From: Lentzea albida
Lineage (GTDB): Bacteria > Actinomycetota > Actinomycetes > Mycobacteriales > Pseudonocardiaceae
Assembly: GCF_900111005.1 (NCBI RefSeq)
Contig: NZ_FOFV01000005.1
Coordinates: 124,001 to 188,000 of the forward strand
DNA: 64,000 nucleotides
Direction of reading: 5' to 3'
Shown here: piece after piece, positions 4,872 to 56,607 of the stretch
How positions within the stretch are numbered: position 1 is the first letter of the stretch
How the letters are laid out: every line of letters starts with the position of its first letter
Made by a program: the position numbers and the translations under genes
The notes under the pieces: model-generated
Databases searched by the model: none
Seen by the model: the letters and a program-made list of their open reading frames with translations, nothing else
What the model was told of the DNA's origin: nothing

Positions 4872-5563
4872 TTGTCTCCCTAGGGTGCTGGGGTCTCGCC
4901 GCCCCGGTTGCGCCGCCCTTCGCCGGGTGGGCGGGGACCGGTGGGGGACGCCGTCGCGCGGCGGTCGGCGGGAACGCTGGAGCGCGCCGGGCCGTTGGGC
5001 GACGAGCGCGTCGTATGTAACGCTCACTATAGCGGGTGGGGTGGTCGTGCCCCAGTACCGCGATCGTGTGATTGCGCTGCGGCGCAGGCTTTTCCGTCTC
5101 GGGTGGGGAGACGGCGGGTGGGGAGACGGCATGGCGGGTGGCGGTGGTGGTGGCGGCGGTCGTGACGTGTCATGGCGCGGCAGGTGGCGATGGCGGACGG
5201 TGGGAGCGGCCAGCGGTGGACGGCGGTCGTGACGTGGCGGTGGCGGCCGACGGTGGGTGGCGGCGGTGGGTGGCGCGGTGGGCGGCGGTGTCGTGGTGGT
5301 GGTGGTGGTGTCGTGGGGGCTAACGCGTCCCCAGCCAAGACGACCCGCGCTGCGCGGCAGCGCCCCGCGCGACTCGCACCCCAGCGCCGCCCCTCCCGCC
5401 CGATCCCAGCGCCGCCCGCCCCACCGAGCGCGGACACCGCCCGCCCCCACCGGCGCCCACGCCACCCGCCCGCCGCGCCCCTGCGCCGCCCACCCCGCCA
5501 AGCTCCCAGCACCGTCCCCCACCGGTCCCGCAGCTCCAGGCGGGCACCGGCCACACAGGACAG
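4872..5563. other. gene-free GC-rich low-complexity stretch
   Basis: About 690 bp between the aldehyde dehydrogenase start and the esterase stop. It contains family A site A1 (5014-5031) and runs of GGTGGCGG/GGTGGTGG-type short repeats (about 5090-5320). Reading frames across it translate to Arg/Pro/Gly-rich nonsense on both strands. Apart from the operator I see no gene or RNA. Confidence 0.6.
5014..5031 (-). promoter_or_regulatory. family A operator, site A1
   Basis: TATGTAACGCTCACTATA on the plus strand; on the transcribed (minus) strand it reads TATAGTGAGCGTTACATA, so TATAGT can act as the -10 box. It is exactly the same 18-mer as site A3. The distance to the aldehyde dehydrogenase GTG (142 bp) is the longest of the seven sites. 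Confidence 0.7.
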
Positions 5564-6442
5564 TCAGCCGCCCAACCCGAAGAACTCCCCCACCAACTCC
5601 GCCGTGTTCACGTGGTGACTGGTCTTCCCCAACACCCCCGGCACCCGAGCCGGCCCGGGAATCGTGTGCCCACCCCCGTGGACGGTGTACAGCACCACCG
5701 GCGGCCGCCCCTCCTGCCGGTACGACGTGCGCTCCACCTCCGTGGGGTCGCCCGCCTCGACCTGGGGCAGCCGCGAGGTCGTCGGGGTCGCGGTGATGCC
5801 GTTGCGCTCGGCGAAGTACACGGCGGTCTGCGGCGCGGACAGGCTGAGGCCGCCCACCTTGAAGAACTTCCGCTGCCACCAGGGGAAGCCGCCGCCCTCG
5901 TAGGAGACGATCGGGTCCTTCGTGCCGTGGATCAGCAGGACCGGCAGCGGGGTGGGTGACGGGTCCTCGGCGAGGAAGTTGTCGGGGACCGGCATGGTCG
6001 CGGCGAGCACGGCGGCGCCGGCGAGCAGGCCGGGTGCCTCGTGGGCCAGGCGGATGACCATCTGGCCGCCGTTCGAGTAGCCGAGGGCGAACACCTTCTC
6101 GCGGTCGATGCGGTGGTGCTCGCTCAGCAGCTCGACCACTGCTCGGGCGAAGCCCACGTCGTCGATGTTCTCCTTGCGGGCCGGGAAGTAGCTCTCGCTG
6201 CGGGCGTCGTTCCAGTTGCCGCGGTGACCGTCCAGGTAGGCCACCACCGCCTGGCCCGACTCCGCCAGGGCGTCGTACGCGCCGCCGGTGAAGTCGCGGT
6301 GGACGTCGCCCGTCTGGCGGGAACCGTGGAAGACCAGCAGAAGCGGGCGCGCGGCGCCGGGGGTCTCGACGGTGGTGAAGGTCCGGGTCCGCCCGGCTAC
6401 GTCCACGCTCTCGCGCGTCACGGTTGCGGTGGTGGTGGGCAT
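5564..6442 (-). CDS. alpha/beta-hydrolase esterase, PHB-depolymerase/LpqC type
   Basis: Serine esterase of 292 aa related to the polyhydroxybutyrate depolymerase/feruloyl esterase (LpqC) group. Catalytic triad as visible: Ser in FALGYSNGGQM, Asp in LLIHGTKDPIVSY, His in YTVHGGGHTIPG; the oxyanion loop is LLLVFHGSRQTG. Unlike many relatives it shows no signal peptide or lipobox when started at ATG 6442, so a cytoplasmic location is inferred. An upstream ATG at 6493 would add residues with no hydrophobic segment. It is divergent from the SDR at 6631-7209, and the shared intergenic region carries two copies of a CGGAT-N5-ATCCG operator. No regulator gene is adjacent. Confidence 0.75.
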   Translation of the reverse strand: MPTTTATVTRESVDVAGRTRTFTTVETPGAARPLLLVFHGSRQTGDVHRDFTGGAYDALAESGQAVVAYLDGHRGNWNDARSESYFPARKENIDDVGFARAVVELLSEHHRIDREKVFALGYSNGGQMVIRLAHEAPGLLAGAAVLAATMPVPDNFLAEDPSPTPLPVLLIHGTKDPIVSYEGGGFPWWQRKFFKVGGLSLSAPQTAVYFAERNGITATPTTSRLPQVEAGDPTEVERTSYRQEGRPPVVLYTVHGGGHTIPGPARVPGVLGKTSHHVNTAELVGEFFGLGG

Positions 6443-6470
6443 GAGGCTCACGATCCTTTTCGTACGCCAA

Positions 6471-6487
6471 AGCGGATGCGCTATCCG
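6471..6487. promoter_or_regulatory. operator copy 1, CGGAT-N5-ATCCG
   Basis: AGCGGATGCGCTATCCG: each copy is a palindrome with CGGAT/ATCCG arms. It lies 28 bp upstream of the esterase start. The second copy (6505-6521) is its inverted repeat with one mismatch, so the two sites form a symmetrical control region for both divergent genes. Confidence 0.6.
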
Positions 6488-6504
6488 TTTCAAGGTAACA
6501 CAGG

Positions 6505-9636: not shown

Positions 9637-11946
9637 CTAGTTCCAGGCTCGGTAGTCGTCGTGCGGCAGCGGGTGGTCCACCGGAACGACTCGCGAGTTG
9701 ACCGCGGTCAGGCAGCCGGGGCACAGCAGCTGGCGGAACACGATCTCCGCGTCGACGTACTCCGACGGGTCGTGCCAGATGTGCGGTCCCGCCTCGGTCG
9801 GCGCCGTCTCTCGCCGGGCGAGGGAGTCGAAGAACGCGCCGCCTTCGAGCGGTCCGATCCGCGTGCTGCAGTGCACGCACACGACCGTGGAGTCCACGAC
9901 GGCGAGGTTGTCGTCGAGCCGGCGGGCCTCGGACAGGTCCGCCACGCTGATCTCCTCGGTGCTCAGCCCCGTCACGCCCGCGTCGGTCGCACGCCGTTGG
10001 CGCAGCCGCACGCGGGTCGCCGCCGTGGCGTCCGCGTCCACCTCGCCGTCCTCCGCGACGACGACGCCGTAGACGTCACGCGCCGCCTCGGCCGAGACGC
10101 GGGCCTGCCGCACGTCCTCGCCGACGCTGTCCTCCTCGCGCAGCAACGGGTCTCCGTACCCACCGCCCGCCTGCCAGTGCAGGTAGAGCGCGTCGCCGGG
10201 GCCGAGGTCCGACTCGCCCTCTGCGGGCAGCACCTCGACCTGCCCGCCGAGCTCGTCCAGACCGGCGGGGATCGACGCCACGTCCGCGAGCTGCGGTCCG
10301 TCGATACCGCGCACGACGAGGTCGAGCTGCGAGTTGCCGGGGTACCCGCCCGCGAGGCCGACGTTCTGGTTCGCCACCTTGCCGTTGCCCGACACGACGA
10401 GCGACATCCGTCCACTTTGGTCCGGGTGCTGGACGTAGCAGACCGAGCCGCTCATGCCGCCGCGCTGCCGGCCGGGGCCGCCCGAGTCCGTCTGCTCGCG
10501 GCGCCACAGGGCGACCAGCGGGTAGAGGTACTCGGTCATTTCGACGTCGGGTGCCCGCGCGGAGGGGATGATCAACCGACCACCGGTGTCGACGCCGTCG
10601 TGGTGCACCTGGGCGCCGTAGCCGCCCGCCATGACGTCGAAGATGGGCGACACGAAGCGCTTGCTCGCCCCGCCGCGAACGTCCACACCGGACACGACGC
10701 AGAGGTCGGTGGTGCCGTTGCAGATGGACTGCACGTCGGTGCGGTGGTCGGGTTCGGCGTCGAGCATCCTCGCGAGGACCTCGGCGACGAGGTTGCCCGC
10801 GCCCCACGCGGGGCCGAACGGGCCCTTGCCGACCGCGGCGGGGAAGGACGCGTTGGTGATCGTGTCCTCGTCGGTGACGATCTCGAAGCAGCGCATCAGG
10901 CCGCCCGCGGCCCACGGGATGTCCCCCGCCAGCAACGGGAGCATGGTGAACACGATGCCGGCGCGCAGGCCCGGGTAGGGGCAGTTGATGATGCCGGTCT
11001 GGCCCGTGGTGCCGCGGAAGTCGAAGACGAGCTTCTCGCCCTCCTTGGTCATCGCGACCTTGATGGCGTGCAGGTTGCGGTCGCCGGTGCCCGACTGCTC
11101 CTGGTAGCCGACCGCGGTCCAGGTGCCGTCCGGCAGGTTCGCGAGCTTGGCCCGCAACCGGCGTTCGGCGTCGTTCATCATCCGGCGCATCACGGCCTTG
11201 ACCGTGTCGGCGCCGTACTTGGTGATGAGCCTCAGGATCTGGTCGCCCGCGTTCTTGTTCGCGGCGATCTTGGCGCGCAGGTCGAGGCCGACCAGGTGGG
11301 GCAACCGCGAGCGGCGCACCCAGGCGTCGGCGATGTCGCGCTGCAGCACGCCTCCGCGCACGACCTTCATCGGTGGTGTGGGCACGGCCTCACCGAAGAC
11401 GTCCTGCGCCGACGGGCTGAACGAGCCGGGGCGCGGGCCGCCGAGGTCGACCTGGTGGGCGATCGCCGTGGTCCAGCCGAACAGCTTGCCGTCGTGGAAG
11501 ATCGGCGCGAGGATCGCGGCGTCGTTCTGGTGCAGGCCGCCGCCGATCCACGGGTCGTTGCACAGGAACATGTCGCCCTCGGCGATGCCGGGGTTGTCGC
11601 TGCGGTTGCGCAACGTCCAGGTGATCGCCAGGTCCATCGAGCCGATGAGGCCGATGTTGTAGGTGCCGACCTGGACCTGCTCGCCGAGCTCGTCGCAGAT
11701 GGAGAAGTTGAAGTCGTTGGACTCGGTCACGACGTGCGAGCCCGACATCCGCCGCAGCGTCTCGCCCATCTCCTGGGTGATCGCCCAGAGGCGGTGCCGC
11801 ACGACCTCGTAGGTGAGCGCGTCGACCTGCTCGTGGTCGTCGGCGATCTGGTGCAGGGGAAGGGAAGGGGAGATCTGCGCCAGCAGCTCCTCCCTCGGCA
11901 TCGGGCGGCTGGTGAACTCGTCCGCGCCGGGGATCCGGGATGTCAT
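9637..11946 (-). CDS. hydantoinase B/oxoprolinase-family subunit with fused C-terminal zinc domain (carboxylase-like)
   Basis: HyuB-type subunit of 769 aa. Residues 1 to about 640 are the hydantoinase B domain (NDFNFSICDELGEQVQ, NDPWIGGGLHQNDAAI, HQVDLGGPRPGSFS, RGGMSGSV, GGGYGDPLLREED). Unusually, the last 75 or so residues carry two CxxC pairs (CVHC and CPGC) in an arrangement like the small gamma subunit of acetone carboxylases. This suggests an ATP-dependent ketone carboxylase (acetone or acetophenone type) rather than a simple hydantoinase. ATG at 11946 overlaps the HyuA stop (ATGA), indicating translational coupling. Last gene of the operon that starts at the AAHS transporter. The substrate is inferred only as a ketone or cyclic amide. 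Confidence 0.8.
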   Translation of the reverse strand: MTSRIPGADEFTSRPMPREELLAQISPSLPLHQIADDHEQVDALTYEVVRHRLWAITQEMGETLRRMSGSHVVTESNDFNFSICDELGEQVQVGTYNIGLIGSMDLAITWTLRNRSDNPGIAEGDMFLCNDPWIGGGLHQNDAAILAPIFHDGKLFGWTTAIAHQVDLGGPRPGSFSPSAQDVFGEAVPTPPMKVVRGGVLQRDIADAWVRRSRLPHLVGLDLRAKIAANKNAGDQILRLITKYGADTVKAVMRRMMNDAERRLRAKLANLPDGTWTAVGYQEQSGTGDRNLHAIKVAMTKEGEKLVFDFRGTTGQTGIINCPYPGLRAGIVFTMLPLLAGDIPWAAGGLMRCFEIVTDEDTITNASFPAAVGKGPFGPAWGAGNLVAEVLARMLDAEPDHRTDVQSICNGTTDLCVVSGVDVRGGASKRFVSPIFDVMAGGYGAQVHHDGVDTGGRLIIPSARAPDVEMTEYLYPLVALWRREQTDSGGPGRQRGGMSGSVCYVQHPDQSGRMSLVVSGNGKVANQNVGLAGGYPGNSQLDLVVRGIDGPQLADVASIPAGLDELGGQVEVLPAEGESDLGPGDALYLHWQAGGGYGDPLLREEDSVGEDVRQARVSAEAARDVYGVVVAEDGEVDADATAATRVRLRQRRATDAGVTGLSTEEISVADLSEARRLDDNLAVVDSTVVCVHCSTRIGPLEGGAFFDSLARRETAPTEAGPHIWHDPSEYVDAEIVFRQLLCPGCLTAVNSRVVPVDHPLPHDDYRAWN

Positions 11947-14060
11947 GAGGGCTGTCCTCCCTGGTAGCGCAGCACGAGGTTGCCGAGGTGGTCGACGGTG
12001 CCGGTGACGCCGCCCGGGACCACGACGACGGTGGTGGGGACCTCGACGATCGCGGGGCCCTGCAGCACGTGGCCCGCGCGCAGCAACGAGTAGTCGTAGA
12101 CGGGGGTGGGGACGAAACCAGCCTGCGAGTCGAGGCAGACGTCCCGTTGGCCGAGGAGCGCCTCGGACGGGTCCTCGCCGTCGCCCCGGGGAACGCGCGG
12201 CAGCTCGACCGGGAAACCGAGGCTCGCCTTGGCGCGCATGCGGTAGGTGATCGCCTGCACGCCGGCCTCGCGGAAGCCGGAGCCGCTGCCGTTGATGCGC
12301 TCGTACTGCTCCTCGAAGCGTTCGAGGACCTCGTCCCCGGTCCTCTCGGTGAACGTCCCGTCCGGTACGGCGGTGGACAGTTCGGTGACCTGCATGGAGT
12401 ACCGCAGGTCGACCTCGCGCTCGAGCACGACGTCGTGGAACTTCACCTTCTGCCGGTCCAGCGCGCGCTGGAGGTCGGCTTCGAGGCGCGCGTAGTGCGA
12501 CTCCAGCACGGTGTGGTCGACCGGGAAGGCCGAGGGGTCGGACAGCTCGGCGCTCAGCGAGACGTCGGAGGCCGCGAGCCCGTAGGCCGAGAACGCCGAC
12601 GCGACGGGACCGAGCGGGACGACGACCTCGCGGACACCGAGGTCCTGGCAGTAACCGGCGCAGTGGGCGGGACCGGCCCCGCCGAACGCGTAGGCGACGA
12701 AGTCGCGCGGGTCGAAGCCCGCCTGCACGACCGCCCGCCGCAGCAGGTCGCCGGCCTGGGCGTTCTGCACCTCGTGGATCGCGATGGCGGCCTCTTCGAC
12801 CGTGAGCCCGAGCGGCTCGGCCACGTGCACGCGGATCGCCTCGCGCGCCAGGTCCATCCGCAACGGCTTGCGGCCGCCCAGAAGTCCGCGCTCGCTCAGG
12901 ATGCCCAGCACCAGGTTGGCGTCGGTGTTCGTGGGACGCGTGCCGCCGTTGCCGTAACAGGCGGGCCCCGGCACGGCTTCCGCGCTCTGCGGTCCGAGGC
13001 GGAGGTTGCCGCCCGCGTCCACCGACGCGAGCGCGCCGCCGCCGGAACCGATGGTGTGCACGCGGATCGTGGCCGCGTTGATCGGGAACTGGTTCACGAT
13101 CGAACCGGGCGCCATGACGGGTTCGCCGTCGACGATCAGCCCGGCCAGGAACGTCGTGCCGCCGACGTCCGTGGTGATCACGTTGCGGTGCCCCAGCTGT
13201 TCGGCCAGGCGCTTGCCACCGATCACACCGCCGGACAGCACCGAGCCGATCGTGGTGATGGCGTGCTCGGGAGCGCGGTCGGCGGTGATGGTGCCGCCCT
13301 CGCTCTGCATGACCAGCAGCGGTCCCCTGAGGCCGCCCTCCTCCAGCTGCTTCTGCAACGGCAGGAGGTAGGTGCGCAGCTTCGGGCCCACCTGGGCGTT
13401 CATGATCGTGGTCGAGGTGCGCGAGAACTCGCGGATGCGCGGGCTCACCTCCGACGACAGCGTCACGTACAGCTCCGGCGCGATCTCGTGGATCAGCTGG
13501 CGGACGCGCTGCTCGTGCGCCGGGTTCTTGAACGACCACAGCAGGCAGACGGCGATGGCCTCCACGCCCTGGTCCACGAGGGTCTGTGCGACGCGGCGGA
13601 CCTCGTCCTCGTCCAGCGGCACCAGGACGTCGCCCGTGTAGTCCACCCGCTCGGTGACCTCGAGCGCCCGGTACTTGGGGATCAGCGGCGCGGGCTTGCG
13701 CTGCCGCAGGGTGTCCTGGATCTCGTGCGCCGACCGGCCGAGCGTGCGGCCCTCGGCGTTCATGATGTAGATCGCGTCCCGGTGGCCCTTGGTGGCGATG
13801 AGGCCGACGTCGGCCACCTCTCCCTGGACGAGGGCGTTGATCGACGCCGTGGTGCCGTGGGCGATGTAGTCGGTCTGCGAGAGGAGCTCTCCGACGCCGA
13901 TGCCGAGCTCGGCGGCGAGGTCCTCGATCGCCTTCATGACACCGACCTCGCGGTTCGGCGGTGTCGTCGGGGTCTTGGCCGAGACGATCCGCCCGGCTCC
14001 GTCGGACGCGACGGCATCGGTGAACGTGCCGCCCACGTCGATGCCCAGTGCGTAAGGCAT
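11943..14060 (-). CDS. hydantoinase A/oxoprolinase-family ATPase subunit
   Basis: ATP-binding HyuA-type subunit of 705 aa. The N-terminal ASKHA-like phosphate loop reads MPYALGIDVGGTFTDAV, with the second nucleotide-binding segment ITTDVGGTTFLAG near residue 305 and GSGGGALASVDAGG, SAEAVPGPACYGNGG and FGGAGPAHC following. These are the hallmarks of the hydantoinase/oxoprolinase and acetone-carboxylase beta-type family, in which the subunit activates substrate by phosphorylation. ATG at 14060 follows CAGGAGA. It lies 20 bp after the monooxygenase stop and overlaps hyuB by 4 bases. Together with the zinc domain on HyuB, a ketone carboxylation is the most interesting reading; N-methylhydantoinase-like hydrolysis is the alternative. 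Confidence 0.85.
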   Translation of the reverse strand: MPYALGIDVGGTFTDAVASDGAGRIVSAKTPTTPPNREVGVMKAIEDLAAELGIGVGELLSQTDYIAHGTTASINALVQGEVADVGLIATKGHRDAIYIMNAEGRTLGRSAHEIQDTLRQRKPAPLIPKYRALEVTERVDYTGDVLVPLDEDEVRRVAQTLVDQGVEAIAVCLLWSFKNPAHEQRVRQLIHEIAPELYVTLSSEVSPRIREFSRTSTTIMNAQVGPKLRTYLLPLQKQLEEGGLRGPLLVMQSEGGTITADRAPEHAITTIGSVLSGGVIGGKRLAEQLGHRNVITTDVGGTTFLAGLIVDGEPVMAPGSIVNQFPINAATIRVHTIGSGGGALASVDAGGNLRLGPQSAEAVPGPACYGNGGTRPTNTDANLVLGILSERGLLGGRKPLRMDLAREAIRVHVAEPLGLTVEEAAIAIHEVQNAQAGDLLRRAVVQAGFDPRDFVAYAFGGAGPAHCAGYCQDLGVREVVVPLGPVASAFSAYGLAASDVSLSAELSDPSAFPVDHTVLESHYARLEADLQRALDRQKVKFHDVVLEREVDLRYSMQVTELSTAVPDGTFTERTGDEVLERFEEQYERINGSGSGFREAGVQAITYRMRAKASLGFPVELPRVPRGDGEDPSEALLGQRDVCLDSQAGFVPTPVYDYSLLRAGHVLQGPAIVEVPTTVVVVPGGVTGTVDHLGNLVLRYQGGQPS

Positions 14061-14080: not shown

Positions 14081-15721
14081 TTATCGCTGGTGGGCGGTGA
14101 CGCGTCCGGTGGCCGTGTGCAGGAGCTCGTCGGGGAAGCCGTCCGCGCCGCCCATCCAGGCGACGTGCTGGTCCGGGCGCACGAGCAGCAGTGCCGCGGG
14201 GTACCGGTCCGCGTGGTCCGCGAGCACGTCGTCCGGCAGGTCGACGACGGCGAGCGGCACGCCGGTCTCCCCCGCCGCCCAGACCCACGGTGCCGTGTCG
14301 GCGCTGTTGTCCGTGCGCAGCAAGGTGAAGCCGGGCCCGAGGAGGTCGAGCACCGACCTGCCGTCGTCGAGCCAGCTGTGCGGCAACCGGAACCCGGGCT
14401 GGGCCCTGTCCTGGTAACCGCCCATGCTGATGGCGTCCTGCTCCTCGCCCCCGATCACGAGCGGGGAACCCGCGTAGTGGTAGCCGAAGCTGAAGCCGTC
14501 CGGCGAGTAGCGCGAGGGCTCGGTGATCGCGAGCCGTTCGGCGAACTCCGCGCGGGCCTGCGCGCCCTCGTCGCCGGGCAGGTGGATGTCGGGCGAGAAG
14601 CCGGCGAGCGACTTGCGGGCCTTCGCCCCCACGGCCGCGGCGAACTGCTCCCCCACCGGCCTGCGTTCGAGCTCGTAGGCCCGCAGCAGCTCCGGCGGTG
14701 CCCAGCCCTGGCGGACGGCCGCGAGCATCCACCCCAGCGCCGCCGCGTCCTGGATGCCCGCGTTCATGCCGAACCCTCCCACCGGGATCCAGATGTGGGC
14801 GGCGTCCCCCGCGAGGAACACCCTGCCGTCCTGGTAGCGCTGGGCCACGAGCTGGCGCCCGGTCCAGCGGACGACACCGAGCACCTCGTGTTCGACGTCC
14901 GCGCCGACGGCCTCGCGCAGCAGCTGCTCGGGGTCCTCGGCGTCGGTGTCGTGGTCCGGTGCGAACGCGACGTGGTTGAGCCACAACGCATCCCCGTCGA
15001 TGGCGATGATCGAGGCCTGCTTGCGGCCGTGCGTCCAGTAGGTCCAGGCCCGGTCGCGTGCGGCGATCTCGCCGAGCTCCGGTGACCGGACGAAGGTCGA
15101 CACGAACTTCTGGATCGCCTCGACGCCCTCGTACCGGATGCCGAGCTGACGGCGGACGGCGCTGTGCGCACCGTCGCAGCCCACGACGTACGCGGCGCGC
15201 AGAACTCGTTGCGCGCCTTCGGTTTCCACGACGGCCTCGACGTGGTCGTCGTGCTGGCGCAGCTCGACCAGGCGGGTGCCGCGCTCGATCGACACCGCGG
15301 GCAGGCCGTTCGCGTGCCGTTCGAGGAGGGGTTCGAGGTACAGCTGCGAGATGCGGTGCTGGGGCTCCGGCGTCGGCCAGTCCATCATCCCGGTGCCGGA
15401 GAGCACCTCCCGCGCCGACGGCAGGTCGATGCGGTAGATCTCCTCGCCGACGAGCGTGGTCCGGTACTGGATCGACGTCGGGTAGTACGACGGCAGTCCG
15501 GCGCGCCGGATGTCGTCGGCGATCCCGAGGCGGCGGAAGATCTCCATCGACCGGGCGGAGGTCGTGTTGCAGCGCGGGTTCTCCGCGCGTTCTTCGGACG
15601 CCTCGACGACGTGACACCGCACGCCGCGCTGGGCGAGGTCGATCGCGAGCGTCAGCCCTGTGGGGCCTGCTCCGACGACCAGGACGTCGAGCAGTTCGTC
15701 ACTGCCGGGTTGCTGTGTCAT
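14081..15721 (-). CDS. FAD-dependent aromatic hydroxylase (PheA/TfdB/MhpA-type)
   Basis: Flavoprotein monooxygenase of 546 aa that probably hydroxylates a phenolic ring with NAD(P)H. Visible: FAD-binding VVGAGPTGLTLAIDLAQRG (residues 15-33), the DG fingerprint AAYVVGCDGAHSAVRRQLG, the second FAD motif RVFLAGDAAHIWIPVGGFGMN, and a thioredoxin-like C-terminal domain as in phenol 2-hydroxylases. ATG at 15721 overlaps the hydrolase stop (ATGA). The order transporter-hydrolase-hydroxylase-HyuAB fits uptake and ring activation of an aromatic acid or ketone. A ring-cleaving dioxygenase is not in this operon but is encoded at 19916 and 44011 under the same operator family. Confidence 0.88.
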   Translation of the reverse strand: MTQQPGSDELLDVLVVGAGPTGLTLAIDLAQRGVRCHVVEASEERAENPRCNTTSARSMEIFRRLGIADDIRRAGLPSYYPTSIQYRTTLVGEEIYRIDLPSAREVLSGTGMMDWPTPEPQHRISQLYLEPLLERHANGLPAVSIERGTRLVELRQHDDHVEAVVETEGAQRVLRAAYVVGCDGAHSAVRRQLGIRYEGVEAIQKFVSTFVRSPELGEIAARDRAWTYWTHGRKQASIIAIDGDALWLNHVAFAPDHDTDAEDPEQLLREAVGADVEHEVLGVVRWTGRQLVAQRYQDGRVFLAGDAAHIWIPVGGFGMNAGIQDAAALGWMLAAVRQGWAPPELLRAYELERRPVGEQFAAAVGAKARKSLAGFSPDIHLPGDEGAQARAEFAERLAITEPSRYSPDGFSFGYHYAGSPLVIGGEEQDAISMGGYQDRAQPGFRLPHSWLDDGRSVLDLLGPGFTLLRTDNSADTAPWVWAAGETGVPLAVVDLPDDVLADHADRYPAALLLVRPDQHVAWMGGADGFPDELLHTATGRVTAHQR

Positions 15722-16500
15722 GAGCTGATGAACTCCCCTACCAGGGCGCAGAACTCGTCCGGCCGGTCGATGTGGATCCAGTGGCCGGCCCCGGCGACCA
15801 CCTCCAGCCGGCCGTGGGGCAGTGCGGCGGCGAGGCGCCGCGAGACCTCGACGGGTGAGACCCGGTCGTGCTCCCCGTGCAGCGCCAGCACCGGTGTGGA
15901 GATCGACGCGAGGTCGACGGCGGGTGCGTCGACGGCCGCGAACATCGACCGGAAGGCCTCCTCGGCGCCGGGGCGCAGTGCCTGGCGCACGCGGAAGTCC
16001 GCGAGCTCGTCGAGCAGGTCGCCGTGGACGCTCTCGTCGGCGACGAGCCGCGCGAGGGTGGCGCGCATGGACTCCTTCGTCGGCTCGCCGTAGAACGGGA
16101 CCGCGGCGGGCAGCGGCCCGGTGCCCGCACCGCCCATGACGACCGCGCGGCGGACCCGGTCCGGCGCGATGGCGAGCAGCGCCAGCGCGGCGGCCCCGCC
16201 GGCGGCGGAGTTGCCGACGAGGTTCACCTTCCCGAGTCCGTTGCGGTCGAGCAGGTCGAGGACCTGCCGTGCGCGGGCGTCGGCCCACGCCCGCGGTCCT
16301 TCGAGCCCCTCGGTCCCGGCGGCGGTGACCTGGACGCCGAAGCCGAGCAGGTCCGGCGCGACGCAGTCGAACTCCGCGCGGAGCCGGGTCGTCACCGCCG
16401 CCCAGTTGCTGACGGCGTCGACACCGGGCCCACCGCCGTGGAGCAGGACCAGTGGGAGATCGGCGCCTGTCACGGCGACGTCCTCCGTTGCGACGGACAC
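15718..16500 (-). CDS. alpha/beta hydrolase, C-C bond hydrolase-like
   Basis: Serine hydrolase of 260 aa resembling MhpC/BphD meta-cleavage product hydrolases. Motifs: oxyanion LLHGGGPGVDAVSNW, nucleophile Ser in LVGNSAAGGAAAL, Asp in HGEHDRVSP, His in GAGHWIHIDRP. The GTG at 16500 is preferred because a textbook AGGAGG lies 6 bases upstream, inside what would be coding sequence for the alternative ATG at 16524, and the shorter protein matches the family N terminus. It overlaps the hydroxylase gene by 4 bases and follows the transporter by 67 bp. The substrate may be the ring-fission product of the hydroxylated aromatic, but an ester or diketone hydrolase role cannot be excluded. Confidence 0.8.
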   Translation of the reverse strand: MSVATEDVAVTGADLPLVLLHGGGPGVDAVSNWAAVTTRLRAEFDCVAPDLLGFGVQVTAAGTEGLEGPRAWADARARQVLDLLDRNGLGKVNLVGNSAAGGAAALALLAIAPDRVRRAVVMGGAGTGPLPAAVPFYGEPTKESMRATLARLVADESVHGDLLDELADFRVRQALRPGAEEAFRSMFAAVDAPAVDLASISTPVLALHGEHDRVSPVEVSRRLAAALPHGRLEVVAGAGHWIHIDRPDEFCALVGEFISS

Positions 16501-16567
16501 CCGGAACCTCCTCGTTCGAGACATTTCACCATCACCCGCGCCACCGCCGGACGCACGTCGGAACCGG

Positions 16568-17914
16568 TCAGGCTTCCGCGACCGCACCGGCCTTGACCGG
16601 CGCGCCGACCGCGTTCGGGGTCGAACGCCCGAACCGCGTCAGGAGCAGCACCGCCGCGCCACCGATCAACGCGGGGATCGTGAACACCTGGTACATCGAG
16701 CTCGGCTGCCACCCCGCCTGCACGAGGTAGCCGGCGAACAGCGGTGCCAGCACGGCGCCGAGCCTGCTCACCGCGACCGCCATGCCGAGCGCCGTCGCGC
16801 GGGACTCCGCCGGGTAGATCAGCGGCACGATGACGTTGATGCCCGAGATCGTCCCGTTGAGGAAGAGCCCGAGCACGACGGCGAAGACCAGTGCGATCGC
16901 CAGCGTTCCCAGGGAGAGCGAGAACAGCACGAGCATCACGGCGGCGAGGCCGAAGTACGCCGCGGTCAGCTTCCGCGCCTCCACTTTGGACACCAGCACG
17001 CCGAGCAGCGCCGCGCCCGTGATGCCGCCGAGGCTGAACAGGATGCCGCCGCTGATGCCCTGCTGGTTGGACATGCCCGCCTTCAGCAGGAGGGTGGGCG
17101 TCCAGGAGCTCGCGAAGTAGAACGCGGTCTGCGCCGCGGTGAACGCGAGCCAGACCAGGACCGTGCGGACGGCGTTGCCGCCCTGGAACAGCGACTCCAG
17201 CGCGACCTTGCGCGAACCCGTGTCGTGCGCGGGCAGCTCGTCGACCGGCTGGCGTCCCATCGAGACGAGGATCTTGTTGAACCTCTGCAGCGCGCCGGCG
17301 GGGCGCTTCGCGACCAGGTAGTCCATGGACTCCGGCAGAAACCGCAGTCCCACCAGGAACAGCACGGCCGTCGCGACGGCGCCGAAGACGAACACGGAGC
17401 GCCAGCCCATGGAGCCGACCAGCACACTCGTGGAGAGCCCCGCGATGACCGCGCCGATGCCGTAGCCCGTCGTGATCAGCGCGACGGCCGTTCCCTTGCG
17501 CTTGTTGTTCGAGTACTCGGAGGTGAGCACCGGCAGGCTCGCCGCCATCGTGCCCACGGCGACACCCGTGACGACGCGGGCGGCGAGGAGCTGCCCGAGG
17601 TCCTGGGTGAAGGCCGCCGCCAGCATGCCGAGCGACGCCAGCGCCAGGCTGCCGAGCGTGATCTTGCGGCGGCCGATGCGGTCGGCGAACGGCGCCAGGA
17701 AGAGCGCGCCGATGGCCATTCCGGCCAGGCCACCGCTCAGCAGCACGCCCACCGACGACGGGGACAGGCCCCATTCGCGGGTGATGGCCGGGCCGACGAA
17801 GGACGTGACCAGTAGATCGAAACCGTCGACCACGTTCATGACCAGGCAGAGGGCGACTGCCTGGACCTGAGCGCGACTCATCGGTGAATTTCTGACCTGC
17901 TCGAGAACGTTCAC
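16568..17914 (-). CDS. MFS transporter, aromatic acid:H+ symporter (AAHS) type
   Basis: Twelve-TM major facilitator protein of 448 aa that imports an aromatic acid with protons. The N-terminal LEQVRNSPMSRAQVQAV and TM1 NVVDGFDLLVTSFVGPAI are typical of the AAHS (PcaK/BenK) family; the loop 2-3 motif reads PFADRIGRRKITLGS and the loop 8-9 region and YPAESRATALGMAVAVSRLG are also present. GTG at 17914 has GAGG 7 bases upstream; the earlier ATG at 17995 adds non-conserved residues. First gene of the operon running to hyuB; family A operator A2 is 87 bp upstream. This placement indicates that the inducing substrate, or a relative, is an aromatic acid. Confidence 0.88.
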   Translation of the reverse strand: MNVLEQVRNSPMSRAQVQAVALCLVMNVVDGFDLLVTSFVGPAITREWGLSPSSVGVLLSGGLAGMAIGALFLAPFADRIGRRKITLGSLALASLGMLAAAFTQDLGQLLAARVVTGVAVGTMAASLPVLTSEYSNNKRKGTAVALITTGYGIGAVIAGLSTSVLVGSMGWRSVFVFGAVATAVLFLVGLRFLPESMDYLVAKRPAGALQRFNKILVSMGRQPVDELPAHDTGSRKVALESLFQGGNAVRTVLVWLAFTAAQTAFYFASSWTPTLLLKAGMSNQQGISGGILFSLGGITGAALLGVLVSKVEARKLTAAYFGLAAVMLVLFSLSLGTLAIALVFAVVLGLFLNGTISGINVIVPLIYPAESRATALGMAVAVSRLGAVLAPLFAGYLVQAGWQPSSMYQVFTIPALIGGAAVLLLTRFGRSTPNAVGAPVKAGAVAEA

Positions 17915-18259
17915 GGGAAACCTCGCTTCGTTGCGACGGTCGTTCAGGCCCCGAAAAAGCCCGGCCCGGCACTGTGGTGCCGATCCGGAGCCCACCCTCT
18001 GTATGTAACGCTCACTCTACAACTTGGGGCAGGCGTTGGCCAGCACCAATTGCGACGGCGGCCGTGCGACGACCCTCGGTCGGTGAGCCCCACCGGCAAC
18101 GATCTATCGGTGGACAGAAGGGCCACACCGGCCGTGGCGCCTGAAAGACCTTCTCTGAACAAACGCCGAACGAACAGCGACCGCGGACCGCGGGGCGCCG
18201 GGCGGGGGTTCTGGCGAACCCCGCCACCCGCGCGTCACCGCGTCGTGATCGGGAAGGGC
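17915..18259. other. intergenic region holding operator A2
   Basis: 345 bp between the AAHS transporter start and the stop of the membrane protein at 18260. It holds site A2 (18002-18019). I see no gene in it. Confidence 0.5.
18002..18019 (-). promoter_or_regulatory. family A operator, site A2
   Basis: TATGTAACGCTCACTCTA; on the minus strand TAGAGTGAGCGTTACATA, with TAGAGT as a possible -10. It is the same 18-mer as A6 and A7 when oriented to the gene. Confidence 0.8.
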
Positions 18260-19169: not shown

Positions 19170-19919
19170 TCAGGAGGCGCTCCAGCCCCCGTCGAGGACC
19201 ATCTCGGTGCCGGTGACCGAGTTCGTCTCCGGTGAGCACAGGTAGGCCACCGCACCGGCGACCTCGGCCGGTTCGATCAGGCGCTTGACCGCGGTCTTCG
19301 CGAGCAGCACCTCCGCCAGCACGTCGTCGACGCTCAGGCCGTGCGCCTTCGCCTGGTCCGCCAGCTGGTTCTCCACCAGCGGGGTGCGCACGTACCCAGG
19401 GCACACGCAGTTGCTCGTGACGCCCTTGGCCGCGCCCTCCAGCGCGATCACCTTCGACAACCCCAGCAGTCCGTGCTTCGCGCTGACGTAGGCGGACTTG
19501 TAGGCGCTGGCCCGCAGTCCGTGGACGCTGGCGACGTGCACGATCCGCCCCCAGCCGCGTTCGTACATCCCCGGCAACACGGCGCGGCTCAACAGGAACG
19601 GCGCCTCCAGCATCAGCCGCAGCATGAAGGCGAACCGCTCCGGCGCGAACTCCTCGACCGGCGACACGTGCTGGACCCCGGCGTTGTTGACGAGGATGTC
19701 GGCGTCGAACCGCTTGTCCCCCAAGCTCTTCGTGTCACTCAGGTCGAGCGGCAACGCCTCACCGCCGATCTGCCTCGCCATCCTCTCGGCACCGTCGGCA
19801 TCGACGTCGCAGACGACGACGTGAGCACCGAGCCCGGCGAGCCGGGTGGCCACAGCGGCCCCGATCCCGCTCGCCGCACCCGTGACGAGGGCACGCCGAC
19901 CGGCGAGCGCGCCCGTCAC
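19170..19919 (-). CDS. 3-hydroxybutyrate dehydrogenase-like SDR
   Basis: NAD(P)-dependent short-chain dehydrogenase of 249 aa. TGAASGIGAAVA (residues 13-24), NNAGVQHVSPVEEF, catalytic Ser in VASVHGLRAS and YxxxK in YVSAKHG; the NNAGxQHVxPxEEF and LPGMYERGWGRIVHVASVHG stretches are typical of 3-hydroxybutyrate dehydrogenases. GTG at 19919 overlaps the stop of the extradiol dioxygenase (GTGA), so the two form one operon under site A3. In this context the substrate may be a hydroxylated intermediate of aromatic breakdown rather than 3-hydroxybutyrate itself; that is inference. Confidence 0.8.
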   Translation of the reverse strand: MTGALAGRRALVTGAASGIGAAVATRLAGLGAHVVVCDVDADGAERMARQIGGEALPLDLSDTKSLGDKRFDADILVNNAGVQHVSPVEEFAPERFAFMLRLMLEAPFLLSRAVLPGMYERGWGRIVHVASVHGLRASAYKSAYVSAKHGLLGLSKVIALEGAAKGVTSNCVCPGYVRTPLVENQLADQAKAHGLSVDDVLAEVLLAKTAVKRLIEPAEVAGAVAYLCSPETNSVTGTEMVLDGGWSAS

Positions 19920-20782
19920 GACTTCGCCCCGGCGAAGGGGTTGGTGTCGGTGTGGCGGTGTCCCCAGACGCTGGCCTGGCCGAAGTCGTGGGGGACCCAG
20001 TCGTCGTCGACTGTGATGCCGCCGCAGCCGATTTCGAGGTGGAAGCCGCTGGGGTTCTTGACGTAGAAGGAGATGGCTTTGTCGTTCATGTGGCGGCCGA
20101 GGCTGATGGAGACGGGGACGTTGTTGGCGTGGGCGCGGTCGTGGGCGCGGCCGACGTCGTCGATGGTGGCGTGCTCGAACTCGAGGTGATGGATCGAGGC
20201 GGTGTCCGCCGTACCGAGAGCGATGCTGTGGTGCGTGGAGTTGCAGCGCAAGAAGAACAGGCCGGGTGAGCGGTAGTCGGTGAGCCGGAACTCCAGCACC
20301 GTCTCGTAGAGGTGGCGCAGTTCGGTCAGGTGGGGGGTGGCCAGGACGAGGTGGCCGAGTCCGGTGATGCCGGGACCACCGGTGGGGCGGTCGGCGGCGA
20401 CACGGACCTTGGTCTCGCCGATGGCCAGTTCGACCCGGAACCCGGCGGGGTCGGTGAACCAGCGCAGATGCGTGGCACCCCGCAGGTCGCGTTCGTCGTC
20501 GATGCCCTCGGCCACGGTGTAGCCGGCCACGGTGAGGCGGTGGGTGAGGCGGTCGAGTTCGGCGGGGGTGTCGACCACCCAGCCGATCTCACGCGGAGAG
20601 TCCTCGGTCGACGGGTAGAGCGCGACCCGGTATTTGAACTCGTCCATCTCAGCGAGCGCGATCGTCTCCGTACCCGACTTGGCGTCGGTCACCCCGACAC
20701 CCAGCGTGCGCCACAACAGATCGGTCCACGCGTCGACATCGGTGACGTTCAAGCCGACATAGCCCAGCTTTCTGATACCCAC
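19916..20782 (-). CDS. extradiol ring-cleavage dioxygenase, type I (BphC/2,3-dihydroxybiphenyl dioxygenase-like), copy 1
   Basis: Fe(II)-dependent meta-cleavage dioxygenase of 288 aa with two vicinal-oxygen-chelate modules. Metal ligands visible: His in ITGLGHLVLAT, His in SIHHLEFEH, Glu in GFHLEIGCGG. It cleaves a catechol-type ring next to the hydroxyls; the exact catechol is unknown. GTG at 20782 with GGAGGGG upstream. About 96% identical in protein (11 differences, by eye) to copy 2 at 44011-44877, with identity extending into the ribosome binding site. Operator A3 lies 26 bp upstream. The GTG start and spacing are the same in both copies. Confidence 0.92.
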   Translation of the reverse strand: MGIRKLGYVGLNVTDVDAWTDLLWRTLGVGVTDAKSGTETIALAEMDEFKYRVALYPSTEDSPREIGWVVDTPAELDRLTHRLTVAGYTVAEGIDDERDLRGATHLRWFTDPAGFRVELAIGETKVRVAADRPTGGPGITGLGHLVLATPHLTELRHLYETVLEFRLTDYRSPGLFFLRCNSTHHSIALGTADTASIHHLEFEHATIDDVGRAHDRAHANNVPVSISLGRHMNDKAISFYVKNPSGFHLEIGCGGITVDDDWVPHDFGQASVWGHRHTDTNPFAGAKS

Positions 20783-20808: not shown

Positions 20809-20826
20809 TATGTAACGCTCACTATA
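20809..20826 (-). promoter_or_regulatory. family A operator, site A3
   Basis: TATGTAACGCTCACTATA, identical to A1; on the coding strand TATAGTGAGCGTTACATA with TATAGT as -10. Confidence 0.8.
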
Positions 20827-21795: not shown

Positions 21796-21813
21796 ATACC
21801 GAACGTTCTATCG
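21796..21813 (-). promoter_or_regulatory. family B operator variant, site B4
   Basis: ATACCGAACGTTCTATCG keeps the GAACGTTC core and CC/TA flanks but loses the outer AGA/TCT. Upstream of the Ohr gene. Confidence 0.6.
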
Positions 21814-21847
21814 AGCTCCATCGTGCAGACGCGGACGCGCGTTGTCA

Positions 21848-21865
21848 AGACCGAACGTTCTATCT
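21848..21865. promoter_or_regulatory. family B operator, site B5
   Basis: AGACCGAACGTTCTATCT in the middle of the divergent Ohr/SDR region. It ends 9 bp before site A4, placing it over the -35 region of the SDR promoter if TAGAGT at 21875 is the -10. Confidence 0.75.
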
Positions 21866-30786: not shown

Positions 30787-30802
30787 CAGGAGAGGACGGG
30801 CC

Positions 30803-40883: not shown

Positions 40884-40898
40884 TGGAGCAATGGTAGC

Positions 40899-40916
40899 AG
40901 ATAGAACGGTCAGTCT
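40899..40916 (-). promoter_or_regulatory. family B operator, site B6
   Basis: AGATAGAACGGTCAGTCT (coding strand AGACTGACCGTTCTATCT), two substitutions in the B core, 15 bp before the TetR start. Confidence 0.65.
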
Positions 40917-41293
40917 ACAGGGTTCACTCCCGCGCTGAGGCGCCCTGCCGGCCGGGTGCTCAACCGCCGTGAGCACCGTCTCAGGTCACGCCGCGGGCAC
41001 CGCCGTCGCGGTGCGCCTGCAGTGTGCGGTGAGGATGACGCTGCAGGTGTGGGCCGCCGAACGCAGGCGCGTCGTCGCGGATCGGCACCACGACGGTGCT
41101 GGAGCCGAGGGTGCCCGCCACGGACTCCACGGCCACGCCTCGGTTTTGACGCGGTCGAGGTGGAGGCGGGCCAGGTCACCGATGCCCGCCTCACGCCTGG
41201 AGGCGCCGAGCGCCGGCAGCACGCTGCCCGCCGCGCTGCGGCGCGCCGGCACGTCGTCGGGAACGCCTGCGCGAGAACGCCCTGCCGCATGCC
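40917..41293. other. degraded sequence upstream of terpene synthase remnant
   Basis: No frame on either strand gives a recognisable protein. If the terpene synthase once had a full N-terminal domain with the DDxxD metal site, it should lie here, but I cannot find it. Confidence 0.4.
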
Positions 41294-42369: not shown

Positions 42370-43005
42370 TCAGGCCCCCGCGACGCCGCGCGCCTTCGCG
42401 AGGCTGCGGACCAGCGAGAGGAACGCGCCGACCTCCGAGCTGTAGGAGACGCCGTCGAAGCTGTTCGACACGGCGAGGCCGTCGGTCAGCGCCCGCCCGA
42501 GCACCGCCAGCTCCTCCACCAGGGCTTTGTCCTCCTCCGCACCGTCCGGCGCGAAGATCGGCGTGAGCGCGTCCACCCAGGACCCGTGGGCGTTGTCCCG
42601 GATGCGGCGCACGGTCGCCCGGACCGCCTCGGCGTCCTTCTGCGGGCCGACGGCGACGGCGACGAGCAGGCGGAGGTAGTCCGGCCGTTCGTCGAGGGAC
42701 TTGCACGCCGCGGTGAACCACGTCTCCAGCCGCTCGATCGGGGCCAGGTGGTCGAAAGCCGACGGGCTCGGGAACAGCGCGTGCAGTTCCTCGAACGTGC
42801 GCTCCAGGAGTGCCGCGAGCACACCGAGCTTGTTGCCGAAGTGGTAGTAGATCGAACTCGCCGGAAGTCCCGACTTCGCGCACAGGTCCGAGACGGCCAT
42901 GCCGTCGTAGCCCTTTTCGCCGATGAGAGCACGAGCCGCGTTCAGAATGTCGTCGCGACTGCTCAAACCGGCGGCAGTCGGCGCGGAGCCGGATTCCCTC
43001 ACCAT
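42370..43005 (-). CDS. TetR-family regulator, candidate regulator of family A operators
   Basis: 211 aa. DNA-binding region at about residues 17-62 (DDILNAARALIGEKGYDGMA; LPASSIYYHFGNKLGVL); ligand domain with HLAPIERLETWFTAACKSL and a C-terminal TetR_C-like part (ALTDGLAVSNSFDG). Divergent from the meta-cleavage hydrolase/dioxygenase operon, whose promoter carries site A6. All other TetR genes in the window either have a different local operator (30208, 38338, 60561), a linked dyad (32949) or family B sites, so by elimination this protein is the best candidate to bind family A. ATG at 43005 has no strong Shine-Dalgarno. Confidence 0.82.
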   Translation of the reverse strand: MVRESGSAPTAAGLSSRDDILNAARALIGEKGYDGMAVSDLCAKSGLPASSIYYHFGNKLGVLAALLERTFEELHALFPSPSAFDHLAPIERLETWFTAACKSLDERPDYLRLLVAVAVGPQKDAEAVRATVRRIRDNAHGSWVDALTPIFAPDGAEEDKALVEELAVLGRALTDGLAVSNSFDGVSYSSEVGAFLSLVRSLAKARGVAGA

Positions 43006-43152: not shown

Positions 43153-43170
43153 TAGAGTGAGCGTTACATA
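43153..43170 (+). promoter_or_regulatory. family A operator, site A6
   Basis: TAGAGTGAGCGTTACATA, 20 bp before the hydrolase ATG and about 150 bp from the divergent TetR start. Within it GTGAGCGTTAC is an imperfect dyad (GTNA-N3-TNAC). Confidence 0.8.
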
Positions 43171-43190: not shown

Positions 43191-44006
43191 ATGACGAGCA
43201 CAGTGGATGTCGGAGACGCGGAGCTGGCCTACACCGACACCGGTACGGGTCATCCGGTCGTGTGGTTGCACGGCTCCGGGCCGGGCGCCACCGGGATGAG
43301 CAACTTCGGCGGGAACCTGCCCGCGTTCGGGGACTTCCGCAACATCGTGGTCGACCTGCCCGGCTGGGGCGGTTCCAAGCGGCCGGAGACCGACGAGCCG
43401 CTGATCTTCCACGCGGCGGACCGGGTCGTCCGCGCGCTGGAGGGCTTCGGGATCGAGCGGACCCACCTGGTCGGCAACTCCTACGGTGGCGCCGTCGCGA
43501 TGCGGATCGCCATGCGCTACCCCGAGCTCGTGGAGCGGGTCGTCCTCATGGCGCCGGGCGGGGTGCTGCCGACCGACGCCCCGCCGTGGCCCGTCGGGCT
43601 GGAGCACCTCTTCGGGTACATGGCCGCGAAGAACCCGTCCCGTGAGGAAATGGCGAAGTTCGTCCGCCTCATGGTCTACGACGAGACGCTGGCGACCGAG
43701 GAGCTCATCGACGAGCGGTACGAGTCGAGCCTGCGGGCCCACCCCGAGCTGCCGATCCCGCCGAACTTCGGCGACCTGACGCCGGACCTCCGCCTCATCA
43801 GCGCGCCGACGCTGCTGGTGTGGGGACGCGATGACCAGACCGTTCCGCTGGCGTGGGCGCCCAGGATCCTGCACGGCATCCCGAACGCGGAGCTGCGCGT
43901 CCTCCCGAACTGCCGCCACTGGGTCCAGTACGAGCGCGCGCCCGAGTTCAACCACATCGTGCGCGAGTTCCTCGAGGGTGGCGTGGCCGCCGCGGCGAAG
44001 GGGTGA
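43191..44006 (+). CDS. meta-cleavage product hydrolase (MhpC/BphD-like)
   Basis: C-C bond hydrolase of 271 aa that splits the 2-hydroxy-6-oxo-dienoate made by an extradiol dioxygenase. Motifs: VVWLHGSGPGATGMSNFGGN (the HGSGPG oxyanion block of this family), nucleophile Ser in LVGNSYGGAVAM, Asp in LVWGRDDQTVP, His in LPNCRHWVQYERA. ATG at 43191. Its stop lies 4 bp before the dioxygenase start, so cleavage and hydrolysis enzymes are made together. Controlled by A6 and probably the divergent TetR. Confidence 0.9.
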   Translation: MTSTVDVGDAELAYTDTGTGHPVVWLHGSGPGATGMSNFGGNLPAFGDFRNIVVDLPGWGGSKRPETDEPLIFHAADRVVRALEGFGIERTHLVGNSYGGAVAMRIAMRYPELVERVVLMAPGGVLPTDAPPWPVGLEHLFGYMAAKNPSREEMAKFVRLMVYDETLATEELIDERYESSLRAHPELPIPPNFGDLTPDLRLISAPTLLVWGRDDQTVPLAWAPRILHGIPNAELRVLPNCRHWVQYERAPEFNHIVREFLEGGVAAAAKG

Positions 44007-44010
44007 CCTG

Positions 44011-44877
44011 GTGGGTATCAGGAAGCTGGGCTATGTCGGCCTGAACGTCACCGATGTCGACGCGTGGACCGATCTGCTGTGGCGCACGCTCGGTGTCGGG
44101 GTGACCGACGCCAAATCGGGTACGGAGACGATCGCGCTCGCTGAGATGGACGAGTTCAAATACCGCGTCGCGCTGTATCCCTCCGGCGTGGACTCGCCGC
44201 GTGAGATCGGCTGGGTGGTCGACACCCCCGCCGAACTCGACCGCCTCACCCACCGCCTCACCGCGGCCGGCTACACCGTCGCCGACGGCACCGATGACGA
44301 ACGCGACCTGCGGGGTGCCACGCATCTGCGCTGGTTCACCGACCCCGCCGGGTTCCGGGTCGAACTGGCCATCGGCGAGACCAAGGTCCGCGTCGCCGCC
44401 GACCGCCCCGCCGGCGGACCCGGCATCACCGGACTCGGCCACCTCGTCCTGGCCACCCCCCACCTGACCGAACTGCGCCACCTCTACGAGACGGTGCTGG
44501 AGTTCCGGCTCACCGACTACCGCTCACCCGGCCTGTTCTTCTTCCGCTGCAACACAACCCACCACAGCATCGCCCTCGGCACCGCCGACACCGCCTCGAT
44601 CCACCACCTCGAGTTCGAGCACGCCACCATCGACGACGTCGGCCGCGCCCACGACCGCGCCCACGCCAACAACGTCCCCGTCTCCATCAGCCTCGGCCGC
44701 CACATGAACGACAAAGCCATCTCCTTCTACGTCAAGAACCCCAGCGGCTTCCACCTCGAAATCGGCTGCGGCGGCATCACAGTCGACGACGACTGGGTCC
44801 CCCACGACTTCGGACAAGCCAGCGTCTGGGGACACCGCCACACCGACACCAACCCCTTCGCCGTCAAGGATTCGTAG
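44011..44877 (+). CDS. extradiol ring-cleavage dioxygenase, type I, copy 2
   Basis: 288 aa, same family and ligands as copy 1 (His in GLGHLVLAT, His in SIHHLEFEH, Glu in FHLEIGCGG). By eye 11 residues differ from copy 1, clustered at YPSGVDSPRE, RLTAAGYTVADGTDD, DRPAGG, FFFRCNTTHHS and the last four residues. GTG at 44011; GGGGTGACCTG before it is shared with copy 1, where it no longer encodes the end of a hydrolase. This suggests that the hydrolase-dioxygenase arrangement is ancestral and copy 1 was derived from it. It makes the substrate for the hydrolase encoded just upstream. Confidence 0.93.
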   Translation: MGIRKLGYVGLNVTDVDAWTDLLWRTLGVGVTDAKSGTETIALAEMDEFKYRVALYPSGVDSPREIGWVVDTPAELDRLTHRLTAAGYTVADGTDDERDLRGATHLRWFTDPAGFRVELAIGETKVRVAADRPAGGPGITGLGHLVLATPHLTELRHLYETVLEFRLTDYRSPGLFFFRCNTTHHSIALGTADTASIHHLEFEHATIDDVGRAHDRAHANNVPVSISLGRHMNDKAISFYVKNPSGFHLEIGCGGITVDDDWVPHDFGQASVWGHRHTDTNPFAVKDS

Positions 44878-55595: not shown

Positions 55596-56554
55596 GCTCC
55601 CACTCCCAGGCCGGGCACCAGCACGATGCGGCGGGTGAGCCGTTCCGCGTCCCGCCACGACCGCGCGATGTCGGACAGCGGCCGGACCTCGGCGTCCACG
55701 GCCAGTTCACCGGCGGCGACCGGCACGGCCAGTTCGGTCAGTCCGGCGACGACCTCCCCCGCGCCCAGCGACCCCCTGCCGCTGCCGACGAGCTCGATCC
55801 GGCACGATCGCAGCGCGGCCGACGGCAGCACGGCGTCCGGGCCCGCGACCGAGCCGATCTCGACCCAGGTGAGGGTGCGGCGCGGATCGGTGCGGCGGGC
55901 GGCGATGCCCGTCAGGACGGCGGTCGTCGGCGGCCCCCACACGTAGTCGAGCACGACGTCGACGTCCGCGGCCGTGGCGGCGAGCAGGTCGACGTCGTCC
56001 AGTGGCACGACGTCCGTCGCACCGAGCGCGGGCAGCTCCGCGAGCCGGTCCGGATCACGCCCGGCGGCGACCACCCGCCGCGCGCCGAGCAGCGCCGCGA
56101 TCCGCACGGCCATGCGCCCCGAGTTGCCGGTGGCGCCGAGCACGAGCACGTCCCGGCCGCGTTCCACCCGCGTCCGCACGCGCAGCGCGAGCCACGCGGA
56201 CATCGCGGGGTTCATGGTGGCCGCCACGGCGACCAGGTCCGCGCCGGAGGGCAGCAGCACGGTGTGCCGGGCGTCCACGACGACCTGCTCGGCCATCGCC
56301 CCGCCAGCCGCGCCGAGGAGCACGAAGTAGCGCAACCCTCCCGCGGCGTCCCGGCCGACACCGTCGATCCCCGGCACGAACGGCAGGGCGCGGGTGCTGG
56401 TGTAGTGCGTTCCGCCCGCCTGCGCGCGCACGACCGGGTGCAGGCCTGCGGCGAGGACGTCGAGCAGCAGGTCGTGGTCGTCCACAACGGACGGACCGGG
56501 CAGGTCGACGAGCTCGGGAGGCGAGCCGTGCGAGGTGACGGCGACGGCCTTCAT
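55592..56554 (-). CDS. MDR-family NADPH oxidoreductase (quinone oxidoreductase-like, zinc-free)
   Basis: 320 aa medium-chain reductase. Start MKAVAVTSHG; catalytic domain without the structural zinc cysteine lobe; nucleotide-binding VLVLGATGNSGRMAVRIAALLGARRVVAAGRD. First gene of the operon with the A-T-TE synthetase and O-methyltransferase, so it probably reduces the quinone or enone product, or an arylpyruvate-derived intermediate. ATG at 56554; site A7 is 35 bp upstream. No zinc ligands found, so quinone/enoyl reductase activity is more likely than alcohol dehydrogenase. Confidence 0.85.
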   Translation of the reverse strand: MKAVAVTSHGSPPELVDLPGPSVVDDHDLLLDVLAAGLHPVVRAQAGGTHYTSTRALPFVPGIDGVGRDAAGGLRYFVLLGAAGGAMAEQVVVDARHTVLLPSGADLVAVAATMNPAMSAWLALRVRTRVERGRDVLVLGATGNSGRMAVRIAALLGARRVVAAGRDPDRLAELPALGATDVVPLDDVDLLAATAADVDVVLDYVWGPPTTAVLTGIAARRTDPRRTLTWVEIGSVAGPDAVLPSAALRSCRIELVGSGRGSLGAGEVVAGLTELAVPVAAGELAVDAEVRPLSDIARSWRDAERLTRRIVLVPGLGVGA

Positions 56555-56589
56555 CAGATCTCTAGCCTTCGATTCCACGCGAGATTGTG

Positions 56590-56607
56590 TATGTAACGCT
56601 CACTCTA
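56590..56607 (-). promoter_or_regulatory. family A operator, site A7
   Basis: TATGTAACGCTCACTCTA; coding strand TAGAGTGAGCGTTACATA, identical to A2 and A6. Controls the MDR-synthetase-methyltransferase operon. Confidence 0.8.

Follow-up and report, generated by a model that had tools for sequence, protein, structure and literature searches.

Seven genes or gene runs scattered over this locus share one short upstream sequence, TATGTAACGCTCACTMTA, and the question it raises is whether these copies act as operators of a single regulon and, if so, which regulator reads them. A preliminary description had listed seven sites and named the TetR-family protein encoded at 42370-43005 as the candidate. 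We followed up both points in the window (the whole 64,000-base stretch of DNA analysed), in the complete genome and in related genomes.

Sites in the window, the genome and relatives

Searching the window for TATGTAACGCTCACTMTA with up to three mismatches returned seven matches, which are precisely the sites listed beforehand, each at its reported position (Table 1). Chance would supply 0.01, the mean over 100 dinucleotide shuffles of the window, in which the maximum was one match. Five sites are exact copies, and those at 30769 and 21875 carry two and three mismatches, respectively. A gene lies downstream of all seven, the direction of the site agrees with that of the gene in 7/7, and every site, read towards its gene, starts with TATAGT or TAGAGT, as had been claimed of a -10-like beginning.

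The scan of the complete genome (9.44 Mb) that had been proposed as a check gave nine matches at up to two mismatches, six inside the window and three outside it, and none for a reversed-pattern control. The seven window sites are real and their list was incomplete, with further sites on contigs C15, C21 and C40. Allowing three mismatches raised the count to 11, seven of them in the window; here C22:812807 may be a chance match, since the reversed pattern also gave one hit at this level. Eight of the nine sites found at up to two mismatches have a correctly directed gene downstream, the exception being C40:81597, to which no target was assigned, and so the motif is not strewn over random genome positions, the outcome that the preliminary description had named as contrary to a regulon. 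Together the shuffles, the genome-wide counts and a draw of class genomes (below) rule out a chance origin of the motif.

Table 1. Coordinates of predicted sites, their target genes and the candidate regulators; positions refer to the window unless a contig is named.
Feature	Position	Strand	Remark
Predicted operator/promoter site, exact	5014..5031	+	towards aldehyde dehydrogenase
Predicted operator/promoter site, exact	18002..18019	+	towards transporter operon (-)
Predicted operator/promoter site, exact	20809..20826	+	towards dioxygenase copy 1
Predicted operator/promoter site, variant	21875..21892	-	towards SDR / chorismate mutase unit (+)
Predicted operator/promoter site, weakest of the seven	30769..30786	-	towards TIGR03086 / MDMPI_N protein
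Predicted operator/promoter site, exact	43153..43170	-	towards hydrolase gene (+)
Predicted operator/promoter site, exact	56590..56607	+	towards MDR / A-T-TE synthetase / O-methyltransferase (all -)
Site, exact	C15:77975		upstream of SDR-hydrolase pair
Site, 1 mismatch	C21:280804		upstream of BBE-like FAD oxidase and aldo-keto reductase
Site, 2 mismatches	C40:81597		no clear target
Site, 3 mismatches	C22:812807		
Aldehyde dehydrogenase	3429-4883	-	target of 5014
HyuB-type subunit	9637..11943	-	Hydantoinase_B
HyuA-type subunit	11943..14060	-	Hydantoinase_A domains
FAD-dependent aromatic hydroxylase, RebC-like	14081..15700	-	
Alpha/beta hydrolase of transporter operon	15718..16587	-	
AAHS-type MFS transporter	16568..17995	-	TIGR00895, 351 bits; conserved leader
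BphC-like extradiol dioxygenase, copy 1	19916..20782	-	followed by SDR 19170-19919
SDR	21913..22863	+	followed by gamma-type chorismate mutase, frame 22620-23495
TIGR03086 / MDMPI_N protein	30773-31435	+	target of 30769
BphD/HsaD-like C-C bond hydrolase	43191..44006	+	
BphC-like extradiol dioxygenase, copy 2	43831..44877	+	
O-methyltransferase	51920-52927	-	
A-T-TE synthetase (adenylation-PCP-thioesterase)	52920-55658	-	
MDR	55592-56578	-	
TetR-family protein, 211 aa, proposed motif regulator	42370..43005	-	TetR_N PF00440, E 3.8e-13
Second TetR, TetR9 family	40293..40976	-	paralog 2738-3382 (+); assigned to second motif
Second-motif pair	21798..21864	+	21798-21812 and 21850-21864, between divergent OsmC/Ohr and SDR genes

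Relatives supplied a better form of the motif, TATGTARCGNTCACTMTA, from which the two imperfect window sites differ by one base each. In gene direction it reads TAKAGTGANCGYTACATA, usually followed by CA, and the alignment of 95 distinct sites gives TAKAGTGANCGYTACATACA. Across these 95 sites the first T of the -10 hexamer is kept in 94, the second A in 92 and the last T in 94. The best inverted repeat of the site, TGTAKAG-N4-CGYTACA, has a permutation p of 0.15, so that inverted symmetry is suggestive only and a strict palindrome as the form of the operator is not supported.

Within the genus the motif (up to two mismatches) occurs in 2 of 24 genomes, and within the family (up to one mismatch) in 20 of 390, spread over 6 of 46 genera, with the reversed control at zero throughout. 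Proteins from 23 stretches around the family sites were clustered together with those of the window's own genome and of G007, the nearest relative in its genus that holds the regulon. Of the 20 motif genomes, 19 have a site upstream of the BphD-like hydrolase, and in 17 a site heads the run of transporter, hydroxylase and HyuAB genes. Of the other three, G129 has that run after the pair of hydrolase and dioxygenase, G382 has a three-mismatch site upstream of an alpha/beta hydrolase of the run, and in G191 the site is directed away from HyuAB. A site precedes the SDR / chorismate mutase unit in 8/20 genomes and a BBE-like oxidase in 5/20, the window's own genome being counted in both; the variant window site at 21875 is thus backed by seven other family genomes. 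G007 has counterparts of only two of the window sites, those at 18002 and 43153. For those at 5014, 30769 and 56590 we found no counterpart, and they look like additions in this strain.

Candidate regulator of the sites

Orthologs of the TetR at 42370-43005 are present in 21 of the 390 family genomes at 65-86% identity (100% for its own copy), the next best match being at 39%, and its recognition-helix region is nearly invariant in 14 orthologs. Motif and ortholog occur together in 19 genomes, an association with a Fisher p of 5e-29 that ignores both kinship and linkage, most sites being linked to the gene. The pairing is not mere linkage, because a single contig of G129 carries the TetR at 1.74 Mb and the site at 7.27 Mb, a distance of about 5.5 Mb; a weak three-mismatch site lies near the TetR there as well. 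G191, one of the 20 genomes with the motif, has no ortholog of the TetR, and the motif is missing from two of the 21 TetR genomes, G132 and G358; the G132 match spans residues 1-156 only and has no regulon gene around it.

The same picture emerged when genomes were chosen by the regulator. When named genomes were scanned with an alignment of the TetR, 41 loci came up, of which 35 reach at least 64% identity; a site at up to two mismatches is present in the fetched stretches of 27 of these 35 (13/13 loci repeating family genomes, 14/22 others). None of the six weaker TetR relatives had a site in its fetched stretch, nor had any of 27 control TetR loci, which are short and total 90,830 bases. 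Whole-genome searches of 21 genomes from other families, selected by TetR alone, found the motif (up to one mismatch) in 19, the two without it being G405 and G410; counting G132 and G358, in which a repeat search also gave none, the tally is 19/23. Among 394 genomes drawn evenly from the class, three have the exact motif: the window's own and two in which the match coordinates are identical to those in TetR-bearing Streptomyces. The regulon is distributed over Lentzea, Amycolatopsis, Pseudonocardia, Streptomyces, Nonomuraea, Kribbella and other actinobacteria. Comparison across genomes thereby lends support both to the claimed regulon, with a predicted operator over the -10 box, and to the TetR at 42370-43005 as its putative regulator.

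Could another regulator encoded nearby read the motif instead? The candidates are TetR9, an IclR and the TetRs at 30226 and 31396, and we regard this as unlikely. In favour of TetR9, its genes adjoin several sites, all but one of the 20 motif genomes have it, and among the 23 TetR9-family genes of the fetched stretches 4 have the motif near their start. Against this, 218 of the 390 family genomes have TetR9, as has every one of the 24 genomes in the genus, of which just two hold the motif, and 19 of the 23 genes have a different, second motif near their start. We therefore rejected TetR9, widespread without the motif and paired with another. IclR was rejected as well, its close ortholog (at least 88% identity) being present in only 2/20 motif genomes and the others reaching at most 47%; the TetRs at 30226 and 31396 appear in the fetched loci of only four and three genomes.

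It also should be considered that the TetR at 42370-43005 might bind the motif as an activator. Some TetR proteins activate transcription, and the motif is absent from the TetR's own promoter in most loci, so that this protein is not a typical self-repressed TetR and no repression of its own gene through the motif is visible. However, an operator over the -10 box and transcription start is expected to block polymerase, which makes activation very improbable here. An alternative sigma factor promoter devoid of any operator role would account for the conserved TAKAGT, the constant orientation and the -35-like elements (by two patterns picked by eye, TRGYCA-like in 31 of the 95 sites, TTGAN in 15 and neither in 49), but sigma makes no contacts some 14 bases downstream of the -10 box, as far as the conserved stretch GANCGYTACATACA extends, and the motif tracks the TetR across families, leaving this reading with hardly any credence.

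The best explanation is very probably a conserved regulon for aromatic catabolism in which the TetR at 42370-43005 acts as repressor at these operators; that it binds and represses, and what its ligand and the pathway's substrate may be, we infer from sequence comparison. The operator would span the TAKAGT hexamer at -10 together with the position where transcription is expected to begin, such that bound TetR would keep RNA polymerase off until an aromatic substrate or pathway intermediate released it. Counting against this explanation are the genomes that have only the motif or only the TetR, the weak inverted symmetry of the site, the absence of the motif from the TetR's own promoter in most loci, and the 46 of the 90 sites with TATAGT or TAGAGT that match neither -35 pattern.

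Predicted target genes and a probable second operator layer

With the repressor released, the AAHS transporter would take up the substrate, which FAD-dependent hydroxylation by the RebC-like enzyme, HyuAB (acting on an amide, ureide or ketone) and the alpha/beta hydrolase would convert; the extradiol dioxygenase would then cleave the ring, followed by C-C hydrolysis. The hallmark of meta-cleavage, an extradiol dioxygenase and a C-C hydrolase in one unit, is present at 43191-44877. The conserved targets would thus amount to meta-cleavage of an aromatic acid, a substrate suggested by the enzyme families. Some relatives also have a DmpG-like aldolase and an FAA-hydrolase-fold protein adjoining the TetR or sites, and some an isochorismatase-fold protein that comes nearest to biuret amidohydrolase and RutB and falls under both cut-offs. 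Because of HyuAB, together with this last protein, there is a hint that the aromatic ring of the substrate may bear a cyclic amide or ureide.

This strain would have wired additional units to the switch: the aldehyde dehydrogenase, the SDR-hydrolase pair on C15 and the MDR / A-T-TE synthetase / methyltransferase operon. The BBE-like oxidase on C21, common to some relatives, would be on the switch as well. The closest solved structure to the A-T-TE enzyme is McyG, which loads phenylpropanoids; a natural-product-like operon (51920-56578, minus strand) would sit behind a catabolic switch.

Some details of the window bear on annotation. The true start of the transporter is probably a GTG at about 17914, and that of dioxygenase copy 2 is probably at about 44010. 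The end of the transporter leader (about 17915-17935, minus strand), GTCGCAACGAAGCGAGGTT, is near-identical between genera and, judged by eye, could form a small hairpin enclosing the ribosome-binding site. We considered an RNA element in this leader, and by eye the conserved part is a short ribosome-binding-site stretch only. The two extradiol dioxygenase copies each have their own exact site, one with and one without a hydrolase. The window also encodes two MmyB-like (MLTR_LBD) regulators, at 24906-25775 (+) and 48532-49392 (-).

A second TetR and putative operator layer overlaps the regulon; it was absent from the preliminary description and is unexpected. The second motif, ACCGAACGTTCTATC, has eight matches in the window, one place contributing a match on each strand, where chance would supply 0.82; genome-wide there are 12 at up to two mismatches, with none for the control. 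Its window positions are 2693, 2746, 18932, 18985, 21798, 21850 and 40900, and those on other contigs C19:73018, C19:76642, C21:284138 and C21:284190. The copies are mostly paired 52-53 bp apart upstream of TetR9, OsmC/Ohr and DUF308 genes; among second-motif neighbours within 150 bp, 41 of 50 are spaced 49-55 bp and 24 exactly 52 bp. This motif is probably the TetR9 operator. In the 15 loci with a called TetR, OsmC is its immediate upstream neighbour eight times, and in six of these eight a second-motif pair at 52-53 bp precedes OsmC, so that TetR9 may control the TetR in such loci; in the window the OsmC and TetR 42370-43005 genes are apart. A gap of 10 bp separates the site at 21875 from the second-motif copy at 21850-21864, which is why the SDR / chorismate mutase promoter probably receives both regulatory inputs.

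As a tentative extension, and one that we hold to be rather less than even in likelihood, the two layers might form a stacked two-TetR circuit around an as yet undescribed pathway for an aromatic acid bearing a lactam or ureide. TetR9 would act through GAACGTTC pairs (~52 bp) on itself, on Ohr/OsmC and, in many Amycolatopsis-type loci, on the OsmC-TetR operon, while the TetR would repress the catabolic units; the inputs would meet at SDR-chorismate mutase, and the A-T-TE operon would have been wired in by this Lentzea strain.

Comparison with known systems

No published account of the regulon or of its operator cores was found among titles and abstract beginnings in the open-licence literature, and to that extent the regulon, with its regulator, operator and targets, is apparently undescribed. 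A catabolic regulon thereby gains a proposed regulator, operator and targets, and its conserved operon defines an aromatic pathway. With a short operator that is strongly conserved and placed at the promoter, the system could, given a ligand, serve as a sensor.

The enzymes resemble biphenyl-type meta-cleavage (BphC/BphD) and MhpABC-like systems in the FAD hydroxylase, extradiol dioxygenase, C-C hydrolase and aromatic acid transporter and, in some relatives, the DmpG-like aldolase, but differ in having HyuAB inside the operon and in that all of them fall under the NCBIfam equivalog cut-offs. In NCBIfam the two Hyu subunits match caprolactamase CapAB and acetophenone carboxylase best, yet HyuA scores 503 bits (CapA) and HyuB 206 (CapB) where the cut-offs are 1000 each; with scores so far below, the HyuAB substrate is probably not that of CapAB.

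KstR and KstR2 govern TetR-repressed catabolic regulons of actinobacteria, and the likeness lies in a TetR whose many dispersed operators would overlie the promoters of genes for ring-cleaving catabolism, as well as in BphD- and BphC-like targets reminiscent of HsaD and HsaC. However, the TetR at 42370-43005 scores 19 bits against the KstR equivalog cut-off of 280, on which we rejected its identity as KstR, and the hydrolase (225 against 400) and dioxygenase (182 against 450) likewise stay under the cut-offs for HsaD and HsaC. Among the regulon targets we saw no steroid side-chain genes, and the motif is unlike the KstR consensus. A TetR-controlled catabolic regulon is a known type of system, of which the conserved example presented here is new.
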